From a virus, in IMG/VR virus record IMGVR_UViG_3300023708_001000, positions 1 to 39,839 of that record: 39,839 nucleotides of DNA; one strand, 5' to 3'. The notes beneath the pieces were generated by a model. The model worked only from the letters and a program-made list of their open reading frames with translations, made no database searches and was not told the DNA's origin. Positions within the stretch are counted from its first letter, which is position 1. Every line of letters begins with the position of its first letter. Positions 9,888-24,434 of the stretch are shown here, piece after piece. Both the position numbers and the translations under genes were made by a program.

Positions 9888-10298
9888 ATGACAGCTGAAG
9901 TGCTGATTGACGCGATGCGGGAGGCCTTTCCGGAAGCCTCGCCAGGCATCATCCCGTTTGGCAGTCGGGTTCTGGTGCAGATTCGCACCCCCAAGACCAA
10001 GACCGCCTCGGGCATCATCATCGACAACGGTTCCCGAGACACCGAGAAATGGAACACGCAAGTTGCTCGCGTTGTCTCTGTTGGCGCGCTTGCGTTCAAG
10101 AACAGAAACACCATGGACTCCTGGCCCGAGGGCAGCTGGTGCAGCCCGGGCGATTACGTTCGCGTGCCCAAATACGGCGGCGACCGCTGGGAGGTGCCGC
10201 TGGCCAACGGCGAGTCGGCTTTGTTCGTGATCTTCAACGATCTGGACATCATCGGCCAGGTGACCGGCGACCCGCTGGCCATCCGTGCGTTCATCTGA
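9888..10298 (+). CDS. GroES-like co-chaperonin
   Basis: A 136-residue protein resembling the Cpn10/GroES beta-barrel: FGSRVLVQIRTPKTKTASGIIID (about 24-46) matches the first strands and the start of the mobile loop. This is followed by ARVVSVG (about 62-68), PGDYVRVPKYGGDRWEV (about 86-102) and a final ALFVIFNDLDIIGQV. Phage proteins of this type, like T4 gp31, cap the host GroEL chamber so that it can fold capsid protein. It is longer than bacterial GroES (about 95 residues), with extra residues at both ends and an insertion near 70-85. The ATG has an AAAGGAG site. It lies between portal and scaffold, consistent with a capsid-folding role. The substrate is not shown by sequence. Confidence 0.82.
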   Translation: MTAEVLIDAMREAFPEASPGIIPFGSRVLVQIRTPKTKTASGIIIDNGSRDTEKWNTQVARVVSVGALAFKNRNTMDSWPEGSWCSPGDYVRVPKYGGDRWEVPLANGESALFVIFNDLDIIGQVTGDPLAIRAFI

Positions 10299-10307
10299 GG
10301 GGCCGCC

Positions 10308-10823
10308 ATGAAACAGCACATTGGAGTGAAGCTCATCAACGCCAAGCCGATGACCCGCCAGGAATACAACGACTTCCGTGGCTGGCAACTTCCCACCGAC
10401 GAAAACGGCGCGGATGAGGGCTTTTTGGTCGAGTACTTGGATGGCGGCAAAGGCAACACGGACCTGTACGCCGGTTATGTGTCCTGGTCGCCCGCCGAGG
10501 TGTTCAACCGCGCATACCGCCCGACCGACGGCTTGACGTTTGGCCTGGCCATCGAGGCGCTGAAGGCTGGCCACAAGGTCGCCCGCGCTGGCTGGAATGG
10601 CAAAGGCATGTGGCTGTCGCTGTCGGGTCATACCGCCAGCATCCGTATTGTGCCAGCCGGTGGCTTCTGGTCGGAGAACAACGCCGACTTCGCCCGTTCG
10701 CTTGGGGGTGCTGCACCAGTGCTGCCCTGCATCACGATGAAAACCGCCACTGGCGAAATTCTGATGGGCTGGCTTGCCAGCCAGACCGACATGCTGGCCG
10801 AAGACTGGGAGATTGTGGAATGA
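10308..10823 (+). CDS. DUF2829 (Tad2-like) protein with N-terminal extension
   Basis: A 171-residue protein. Residues 1-73 are a separate small domain found in front of DUF2829 in other phages (INAKPMTRQEYNDFRGW, SWSPAEVFNRAYRP). Residues about 76-171 match DUF2829: FGLAIEALKAGHKVARAGWNGKGM (78-101), ITMKTATGE (142-150) and LASQTDMLAEDW (156-167). DUF2829 is the fold of Thoeris anti-defence protein Tad2, which sequesters cyclic ADP-ribose-type signal molecules made by Thoeris immunity. Whether this copy binds such a nucleotide is inference; many DUF2829 proteins are untested. It sits nine bases after groES and overlaps the next gene by four bases. Family membership is fairly secure, but the anti-defence function is a hypothesis. 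Confidence 0.85.
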   Translation: MKQHIGVKLINAKPMTRQEYNDFRGWQLPTDENGADEGFLVEYLDGGKGNTDLYAGYVSWSPAEVFNRAYRPTDGLTFGLAIEALKAGHKVARAGWNGKGMWLSLSGHTASIRIVPAGGFWSENNADFARSLGGAAPVLPCITMKTATGEILMGWLASQTDMLAEDWEIVE

Positions 10824-11167
10824 GCACGGCACCCCGCATCACACCTGCCGAACTCGACGCCAACATCGTTGACATCGAAATCGTCAAGCACGTATCGAAA
10901 ACCGGCCAAGTCCTGCGCTGGGCTGTGCTGACCACGCGCAACGGCTTCGCTGTCACTGGCCGCCCGTCCGCGTCCGTGTCTCCGCTGAACGACGACCCTG
11001 CCATCGGCGAGGCCGTCGCCATCGAGAACGCCAAGCACGAACTCTGGCCCCTCATGGGCTACGAGCTGCGCTCCAAGCTGGCCGCCCAGGCCGCTCACGA
11101 CGACGACTTCCCTCTCGGCAAAGCCTGCGACCTCTCCGGCGAAGGCAACTGCGAGGCCTGCCAATAA
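10820..11167 (+). CDS. Phage gp49/gp66 family protein (N4 gp49 / Sf6 gp66-like)
   Basis: A 115-residue protein. It has ITPAELDANI at the N-terminus, a central LRWAVLTTRNGFAVTGRPSASVSP and an IGEAVAIENAKHELWPLMGYELRSKL segment. This is the signature order of the Phage_gp49_66 family (N4 gp49, Sf6 gene 66), small proteins of unknown function widespread in phages. The final 20 residues contain two Cys (ACDLSGEGNCEACQ has three), an extension that could bind metal. The ATG at 10820 overlaps the preceding stop (ATGA), so it is probably coupled to the DUF2829 gene. A longer frame upstream is a shadow of that gene. Confidence 0.88.
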   Translation: MSTAPRITPAELDANIVDIEIVKHVSKTGQVLRWAVLTTRNGFAVTGRPSASVSPLNDDPAIGEAVAIENAKHELWPLMGYELRSKLAAQAAHDDDFPLGKACDLSGEGNCEACQ

Positions 11168-11185: not shown

Positions 11186-12169
11186 ATGCCCGCACTCACC
11201 GAAAACGACGACGACAACAGCGGCAACCAGGGCAACCCGGAAGAGCTGGTCATCGTTGAGACCCCGCCCAATGATGACGGCGGCAACAAAGACGACGCGC
11301 GCCTGAATGGCAACGACGACGACGGCGACAACCACGACGGCAACGACGCCGAGCGCGAGGCGATCCGCGAGCGCCGCCGCAAGGAAAAGGCCGAGCGCAA
11401 GGAGCGCCGCGAGCAGGCGATCAGCCGCGACAAACTGGAGCTGAACTTCCTGCGCCAGCGCAACGACGATCTGGAGCGCCGCCTCGGCAGCGTGGAGCAG
11501 CACACCCACCAAGCCAGTCTGTCCAGCTTTGACGCTCAGATCGCCCAGGCGCGCAACGAGGCTGAGATGGCTGAGCGCGTGATCGCCAAGGCTGTGGCCG
11601 CCGGCAACGGTGACGACGTCACGCAGGCCATGCGCTACCGCGACCAGGCCATGCAAAAAGCCCAGCAGCTGACGTTTGCCAAACAGCAGGCGGCCCAGCA
11701 ACGCCCGGCCCAGCAGCCGGAAGGCCTGGACAACATGACGGCGCACTACGTCAAAGAGTTCATGGCTGAAAATCCCTGGTACGACATCAAGGGCAACGAC
11801 GAGGACAGCGCCATCGTGCTGGCCATCGACGGTGCTTTGCATCGCGAGGGCTTCCGACCCGACACCGAGGAGTACTGGGACGAGCTGCGCGATCGCGCCG
11901 CCCGTCGCCTGCCTGAGCGTTTCAACGCCGCAGGTACCGGCCGCGAGCCCCAGCGCCAGCAGTCGCAGCAGCAGCCAACCCGAACCCCGCGCGGCGGCCC
12001 TGCAGTCGGCTCTGGCCGCGAGCACGCGCCCACCAGCACACGCACCGAGGTGTACATCAGCCCCGAGCGCAAGCAGGCACTGATCGACGCTGGCGTCTGG
12101 GACGATCCCGTGCTTCGCATGAAGTACGTGAAACGCTACTCCGAATACGACAAAAACAACCGCGCTTAA
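11186..12169 (+). CDS. Putative scaffolding protein
   Basis: A 327-residue, very hydrophilic protein between portal and capsid, where scaffold genes usually lie. The first 55 residues are highly acidic (Asp/Asn-rich), followed by an Arg/Lys/Glu-rich coiled coil (about 55-175) and a Gln-rich linker. A folded patch FMAENPWYDIKG...AIDGALHREGF lies near 195-225. After a disordered Gln/Thr/Arg stretch comes a basic C-terminal helix (MKYVKRYSEYDKNNRA). Scaffold proteins often use a basic C-terminal helix to bind coat protein. Assembly scaffolding within the prohead is therefore the likely role. The ATG at 11186 has a CAGGAG site. No protease domain is visible, so the scaffold is probably ejected or cleaved by another enzyme. 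Confidence 0.75.
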   Translation: MPALTENDDDNSGNQGNPEELVIVETPPNDDGGNKDDARLNGNDDDGDNHDGNDAEREAIRERRRKEKAERKERREQAISRDKLELNFLRQRNDDLERRLGSVEQHTHQASLSSFDAQIAQARNEAEMAERVIAKAVAAGNGDDVTQAMRYRDQAMQKAQQLTFAKQQAAQQRPAQQPEGLDNMTAHYVKEFMAENPWYDIKGNDEDSAIVLAIDGALHREGFRPDTEEYWDELRDRAARRLPERFNAAGTGREPQRQQSQQQPTRTPRGGPAVGSGREHAPTSTRTEVYISPERKQALIDAGVWDDPVLRMKYVKRYSEYDKNNRA

Positions 12170-23421: not shown

Positions 23422-23940
23422 ATGGCTGATTTTTACCCCGCCTTTGAGGCCATGATTCAAGACGAGGGTGGCTATAAGCTGCACACCATCGACGGTGATC
23501 GTGGCGGCATGACGTACGCCGGAATTGCCCGCAACTTCAACCCAACATGGGAAGGGTGGGCGTTCATTGACCGCAACGAGACGCCTCCGACACCGATGGT
23601 GCGCAGCTGGTACCACGCCAACTACTGGACCCCGATCTGCGGGGACAGCATTGTCAGCCAAGTGATTGCATCGTCAATTTTCAATTTCGCCGTGAACTCC
23701 AGTGCGCCTGGCCGACCAGCGGTTGCCGTCAAACTCGCGCAGCTGGTTGTCGGGGCCACGCCGGATGGCTCTTTTGGGCAGCGCACGCTCCAGGCGATCA
23801 ACGCCTACGACCCCGAAAAGTTTGTCATGGCCTACGCTCTGGCCAAGATTGCCCGGTACCGGGATATTGTGACGCGCGACCGCACGCAGCAAAAGTTTTT
23901 ATTGGGCTGGCTGTCGCGCACGTTGAAGGGGCTGGCATGA
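23422..23940 (+). CDS. Endolysin, GH108-type N-acetylmuramidase
   Basis: A 172-residue cell-wall hydrolase. The catalytic EGGY motif has its Glu at residue 15. The second motif DRGGMTYAGIAR lies at 26-37, matching the GH108 (DUF847) pattern 'EGGY...D.GG.T..GI'. The C-terminal half includes PDGSFGQRTLQAIN (about 112-125), the usual peptidoglycan-binding 3 domain of these enzymes. It cleaves the glycan backbone of peptidoglycan at the end of infection. There is no N-terminal signal peptide or signal-anchor, so release through a holin is expected. The gene overlaps the HNH gene by four bases (ATGA). Confidence 0.93.
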   Translation: MADFYPAFEAMIQDEGGYKLHTIDGDRGGMTYAGIARNFNPTWEGWAFIDRNETPPTPMVRSWYHANYWTPICGDSIVSQVIASSIFNFAVNSSAPGRPAVAVKLAQLVVGATPDGSFGQRTLQAINAYDPEKFVMAYALAKIARYRDIVTRDRTQQKFLLGWLSRTLKGLA

Positions 23941-24434
23941 TTGATCAAAAGACTCTGATGTCGCTCGTTTCTTATGATCCAGAAACGGGCGTCTTTACGC
24001 GCTTAAAAGGCACCGGCAAGGGCGCGGCGGCTGGCAAGCAATCGCAAGGCTGCGTTGACAAGTCAAACGGGTACAGAAGGCTTTGCGTCAATGGAAAACA
24101 GTATTACGCGCATCGGCTGGCGTGGCTGTACATGACTGGCGAATGGCCTGCTGAACAGATAGACCACATAAACGTGGATAGGGCTGACAACAGGTTCACA
24201 AACCTGAGACAAGCCAATAATGCGCAGAACAATCAACGATCCAAAGCTAGGGCTGACAGCAAGACCGGTGTGCTCGGTGTGAGCTGGCACAACAAGGCCG
24301 GAAAGTACGTTGCGCAGATCAGGCACTTAGGGCGCACGATCTATTTGGGGCTGCACGATTCTGTTGATGCTGCGGTGATTGTTCGACAAGCAGCAGAACG
24401 AAGGCTGCACACGCATCACAGGAGTGCCGCATGA
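23937..24434 (+). CDS. HNH endonuclease with AP2-type DNA-binding domain
   Basis: A 165-residue protein. The HNH core includes AHRLAWLYMTGEWPAEQIDHINVDRADNRFTNLRQANNAQN: His59-Arg60, Asp76-His77 and Asn85 are in canonical spacing. Residues about 109-155 (KTGVLGVSWHNKAGKYVAQIRHLGRTIYLG) form an AP2/ERF-like DNA-binding domain. Such proteins are free-standing homing-type nucleases that cut a specific site and spread between phage genomes. It is seated exactly, with four-base overlaps, between endolysin and holin genes, so both lysis genes remain intact and coupled. It looks less GC-rich than its neighbours, in keeping with mobility. Confidence 0.9.
   Translation: MIDQKTLMSLVSYDPETGVFTRLKGTGKGAAAGKQSQGCVDKSNGYRRLCVNGKQYYAHRLAWLYMTGEWPAEQIDHINVDRADNRFTNLRQANNAQNNQRSKARADSKTGVLGVSWHNKAGKYVAQIRHLGRTIYLGLHDSVDAAVIVRQAAERRLHTHHRSAA

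Follow-up and report, generated by a model that had tools for sequence, protein, structure and literature searches.

The window, which is the whole 39,839-nucleotide stretch of viral DNA analysed here, raises the question of what a protein with a Tad2-like (DUF2829) domain is doing inside an operon of structural genes. The protein, here called N-Tad2, carries an additional N-terminal domain, and the initial annotation offered two readings of it: an immune-signal sponge with unusual timing and architecture, or a domain with a second role. The late structural operon that was described is indeed present, as TerS, TerL and portal genes lie upstream and the genes for the scaffold-like protein and the major capsid protein lie downstream, while GroES and gp49/66 were correctly named as the immediate neighbours (Table 1). 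Ahead of the terminase genes, the window also encodes a DNA methyltransferase whose N-terminal part is ParB-like (337-1686), and one of the genes interspersed with those for the tail encodes an HNH endonuclease (23937-24434). As argued below, N-Tad2 is likely to be an accessory immune-signal sponge, paired with an Acb4-like sponge, that occupies a recombining exchange site flanked by GroES and the scaffold gene.

N-Tad2 is a member of an already known family. The whole protein matches PHROG 872 over its full length (E 4e-62), and residues 77-170 match the Pfam Tad2-like profile PF11195 at profile positions 2-73 of 73 (E 2.6e-24), scoring 86 bits where the curated cut-off is 25. In a phmmer search of the PDB, the protein matches HgmTad2/AcrIIA7 (5e-17), SptTad2 (8e-17), ModTad2 (1e-13) and SPO1 Tad2 (~1e-11). 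The AlphaFold2 model, predicted as a monomer from a 63-row alignment, has a pLDDT of 91.7, and the nearest folds found with Foldseek are SptTad2 with cGG (E 6e-8) followed by HgmTad2. Comparison with VIA places all characterised Tad2 structures at Z 10.8-12.8, the best match extending over 96 residues (Z 12.8, rmsd 3.0), and the next entry at Z 4.9. The profile, the PDB sequence matches, the fold and the motifs together bear out the DUF2829 assignment. Loss of the Tad2 ligand-pocket residues, which the initial annotation had set against a sponge, was not seen at the level of sequence motifs: of the conserved segments that make up the Tad2 ligand-binding loops, ARxGWNGKGM is identical to HgmTad2 and SptTad2 at 9 of 10 positions, and the GWLASQTDMLAEDW segment (W-A-S-Q-x-D ... 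DW) at 13 of 14. Judged by its sequence and predicted structure, the window gene very probably encodes a phage sponge for bacterial immune signals.

Known Tad2 proteins differ in their ligands, which include gcADPR, His-ADPR and cyclic dinucleotides. The gcADPR pocket is not involved when the insert within the Tad2 domain binds cyclic dinucleotides (review, PMC12043709). Among 63 diverse N-Tad2 members this insert varies in sequence as well as in length (16-37 residues, with 32 in the window protein), and the inserts of HgmTad2 and SptTad2 are likewise long. On the strength of sequence and model, the Tad2-like domain would form a Tad2-style assembly, a homotetramer whose protomers enclose the ligand pockets between them, that sequesters ADP-ribose-type Thoeris signals and so could protect the phage, and by analogy with HgmTad2 and SptTad2 the long insert probably also takes cyclic dinucleotides. 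A sponge for a ligand new to Tad2, such as another ADPR derivative or nucleotide for which the variable insert has re-tuned the pocket, would fit the wide variation of the insert in this subfamily and the diversity of ligands among characterised Tad2s. This alternative is rather unlikely, however, given that the core and the insert size of the window protein are most like those of HgmTad2 and SptTad2.

Unlike the characterised Tad2 sponges (HgmTad2/AcrIIA7, SptTad2, SPO1 Tad2 and ModTad2), with which it shares fold and motifs, the window protein has a fused 72-residue N-terminal module, is encoded in a late structural operon and stands beside an Acb4-like gene. The existence of a separate N-terminal domain was rightly recognised: residues 1-72 are predicted to fold as their own unit, consisting of a strand, a helix, two strands and a helix (pLDDT 93). 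The view that such an extra domain is unusual does not hold, as the fusion is the commonest form of the subfamily. PHROG 872 includes gp49 of phage N4, which has the same two-domain architecture as the window protein and differs only in sequence. Among loci taken from IMG/VR and from phage records, 303 complete ORFs combine the N-domain with a Tad2-like domain, some of them stemming from stretches that overlap on the same contig, and the gene contexts of the fusion in phages such as N4 and Kapi1 are quite different. The two parts are similarly conserved, with a mean pairwise identity across the 63 diverse members of 68% for the N-domain and 65% for the Tad2 core. In phage N4, gp48 (PF13876) directly precedes gp49 (N-Tad2). 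Although the name of PF13876 refers to 'N4 Gp49', EF056009 has the PF13876 protein as gp48 and N-Tad2 as gp49; the 'Gp49' label may have been carried over wrongly in some databases (phage N4, locus L162, 3603-4456).

The C-terminal domain is recognised as PF11195, and the N-domain (residues 1-72) has no match by sequence in Pfam, NCBIfam or the PDB. Foldseek of the N-domain against the PDB gave no match at E <= 0.001, and a likeness to SPO1 Tad2 (E 3.5) was rejected as chance. The VIA scores for a chromodomain fold of the N-domain alone (Z <= 3.0) and for CarD, Tudor and SH3-like barrel folds with the full model (Z up to 4.7) are too weak to name a fold, and the SH3-like barrel is no more than a hint.

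The same N-module is found in other combinations. It is fused to PF13876 domains, on either side, in crAssphages (L325, L327), in L235 and in a Rhizobium phage (L332), to PF21825 (crAss001_48) in L252, L257, L269, L280, L328 and L330, and to an AWHCNIA domain in L164 and L240, and it stands alone in L323, L324 and L333. Pectobacterium phage phiA41 (L321) and Yersinia phage TG1 (L322) encode fusions to RyR; the HMM match of these (E ~0.004 at a database size of 1e5) is weak by itself and has structural support from a BFVD match with probability 1.00, and standalone relatives score better (L323, E 6e-7). In three proteins, from Stenotrophomonas phage Philippe (L329), L244 and crAssphage cr107_1 (L326), the N-module, PF13876 and PF21825 occur together, which makes PF21825 a candidate anti-signalling domain. 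At L309 (2501-3019) the N-module precedes a C-terminal domain without a confident Pfam match. As it is fused to Acb4-like, RyR and crAss001_48 domains in addition to Tad2, and also stands alone, the N-module would seem to be a unit that such proteins have in common. Its most likely role, proposed with low confidence, would be that of an adaptor or interaction module common to several signal antagonists.

The family of the downstream neighbour had been overlooked. The gp49/66 gene is a member of the family of the anti-CBASS sponge Acb4, and the neighbourhood takes on another meaning in this light. Its product matches PF13876 with E 3.4e-15 (56.7 bits, cut-off 27), and a profile of the PF13876 genes that adjoin N-Tad2 matches the structure of SPO1 Acb4 (gp1.3, PDB 9E4W; E 6e-8). 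SPO1 Acb4 has been assigned to PF13876, 8/8 purified homologues bound 3'3'-cGAMP, and homologues of varied sequence still bound cGAMP (preprint, PMC11722364). Of the SPO1 Acb4 contacts, read from alignments, F48 and I66 are kept in the Acb4-like protein of the window and K36, E49, F62, N63 and T70 are replaced, K36 and E49 also being replaced in most of its relatives. As several contact positions are replaced, the ligand of the window Acb4-like protein may differ or be lost.

This pairing is found well beyond the window. A PF13876 gene is present in 24 of 50 contigs with N-Tad2, and since some of these contigs are related a pooled p-value for the companionship is not to be taken at face value. 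The two genes are on the same strand in 24/24 cases, and 23 of the PF13876 genes lie within ~810 bp of N-Tad2, in either order, the last being at the other contig end. The control family PF21825 is found in 2/50 of the same contigs. The Acb2 hairpin exceeds its cut-off in 6/50, and by coordinates four of these adjoin N-Tad2. RyR occurs in only 1/50, ~4 kb from N-Tad2; RyR companionship therefore looks like a feature of the clade to which the window belongs rather than of N-Tad2 in general.

Table 1. Features of the GroES-scaffold junction in the window.
Feature	Position	Strand	Description
Phage GroES homologue	9888..10298	+	PF00166; fixed left flank of exchange site
N-Tad2 gene	10308..10823	+	171 aa, ATG start; N-terminal module and Tad2-like (DUF2829) domain; PHROG 872
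N-terminal module (residues 1-72)	10308..10523	+	Signature YNxxRGW ... EGYLVEYxDGG ... GYVSWSPxxVFxxAY; without Pfam family
Tad2-like domain (residues 76-171)	10533..10820	+	32-residue variable insert, size class of HgmTad2/SptTad2
Acb4-like gene ('gp49/66')	10820..11167	+	PF13876; start overlaps N-Tad2 stop by ATGA; divergent 'GRPSxSVSPxNDD' subgroup
3' tail segment (DDDFPLGKACDLSGEGNCEACQ-stop)	11099..11167	+	Common to last cassette gene of siblings, Acb4-like or RyR
Scaffold-like protein preceding capsid gene	11186..12169	+	Fixed right flank of exchange site

The closest annotated relatives of the window, Caulobacter phages such as RW, encode GroES (63% identity) and, directly after it and without an intervening gene, the scaffold homologue (38%). 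A survey for which 80 GroES relatives were fetched yielded, with the window and RW, 75 readable junctions, of which 46 are empty and 29 filled. The filled junctions, which all belong to a single clade of related phages and do not count as independent, show 12 arrangements made up only of Tad2, Acb4, Acb2 and RyR/RyDEP homologues. The most frequent are N-Tad2>Acb4 (nine, the window included) and Acb4 (four); two each have Acb2>N-Tad2>Acb4, Acb2>RyR>Acb4, Acb2>RyR, Acb4>RyR, RyR or N-Tad2, and RyR>Acb4, N-Tad2>RyR>Acb4, Tad2 without the N-domain, and Acb2 were seen once each. Pfam searches of representatives confirm RyR (PF02026), the Acb2/Tad1 hairpin (PF24729; 36.5-40.2 bits in L341, L350 and L367, cut-off 27), Tad2 and PF13876. 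The four families tile all 29 filled junctions completely, with no unexplained stretch of at least 100 nt. Eight RyR proteins resident at the site keep equivalents of the RyDEP residues H75, W78, H100 and D117 at the same spacing. RyDEP, a RyR glycosidase or sponge, fills in siblings the site that N-Tad2 fills here, as well as being joined to the N-module in the phiA41 and TG1 fusions; in the window itself, a search that had no positive control did not find RyR.

According to published work, all four resident families are antagonists of nucleotide immune signals: Tad2 and Acb2 sequester such signals (PMC12043709), as does Acb4 (PMC11722364), and RyDEP acts on 2' and 3' cADPR by cleavage or sequestration (PMC13232231). 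Of the 29 filled sites, 24 have an antagonist of ADPR signals and 24 an antagonist of cyclic oligonucleotides, with both in 19. These companions also bear on the idea that N-Tad2 inhibits CRISPR-Cas9 in the manner of AcrIIA7, which is the same protein as HgmTad2, and for which the 'anti-CRISPR protein' labels in the GenBank records of Escherichia phages Louie and Huey could be cited. However, these labels rest on family homology, the solved AcrIIA7 structures contain signal nucleotides (8kbk), and every companion at the site acts on nucleotide signals, so that Cas9 inhibition is extremely unlikely.

The contents of the junction are exchanged while its flanks are retained. A tree built from both flanking proteins, GroES and scaffold, shows 18 or more switches of content. 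The flanking proteins of L342 and L345 are identical over 451 columns, yet the first has Acb2>RyR>Acb4 and the second N-Tad2>Acb4. In L366, L367 and L368, with GroES and scaffold proteins 94-99% identical, the contents are Acb4>RyR, Acb2 and N-Tad2, respectively. Tad2 and RyR occur together in 1/29 filled sites, a count that suggests mutual exclusion (naive p 0.0015) and loses this support after correction for the tree (median p 0.25). A tail, DDFPLGKACDLSGEGNCEACQ, often ends the last cassette gene, whether Acb4-like or RyR, with up to 68/69 nt identical, and is probably a recombination seam. In the window, L350, L357 and L358, the tail contains Cys and is in frame in the Acb4-like and RyR proteins.

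These observations also weigh on the possibility that the Tad2 domain has been recruited, with the help of the N-module, for virion structure or assembly in the late operon and no longer targets signals, as would suit its position between the GroES and scaffold genes and the fact that no sigma-70-like promoter of its own was found near the cassette. Such a role is nonetheless very unlikely, as 46 of the 75 relatives have the same GroES and scaffold genes without N-Tad2, at other junctions its place is taken by RyR, Acb2 or a Tad2 that lacks the N-module, the fusion is not tied to this context in N4, Kapi1 and other phages, and the sponge motifs are intact. The second role suggested at first for the domain is likewise not supported, since most relatives lack the gene at this junction and siblings have RyR, Acb2 or Acb4 instead. 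This pattern points to an accessory counter-defence cassette rather than a part of the virion.

Under the reading of N-Tad2 as an accessory sponge, the Acb4-like sponge would be translated together with it and aimed at CBASS signals, and the phages would re-equip themselves against host signalling defences by recombination at one exchange site. The gene spacing suggests that the cassette is co-expressed with the capsid genes. Late expression was rejected as an argument against a sponge. The major head protein triggers some Thoeris systems (ThsB1; PMC12043709), so that expression from the late operon would be no handicap and antagonist and trigger would be made at the same time.

The junction resembles phage anti-defence islands, which likewise cluster counter-defence genes in an accessory locus, and it shares with them an accessory, variable occupancy at a fixed genomic site. 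It differs from those islands in being one junction within the capsid operon and in accepting, in this sample, nucleotide-signal antagonists alone, with exchange among phages that have identical flanking proteins. A literature search covering few subscription journals found no description of the swap site or of the shared N-module.

The use of one swap site inside the capsid operon by four families of immune-signal antagonists gives a simple rule, namely to look between GroES and the scaffold gene for further counter-signalling genes and new counter-immunity proteins. The site ties antagonists to genes whose products can trigger defences. The N-module links Tad2, Acb4 and RyDEP-type proteins that have been described separately, and leads to testable predictions for PF21825. 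More tentatively, and with somewhat less than even confidence, the N-module (GY[VI]SWSP) may be dedicated to anti-signalling proteins and combined with unrelated antagonists (Tad2, Acb4 and RyR), in which case crAss001_48 (PF21825) and AWHCNIA would be undescribed antagonists and the GroES-scaffold junction a natural trap. If this is true, the dedicated N-module might dock antagonists to a shared partner from the host or the phage, or raise their valency.
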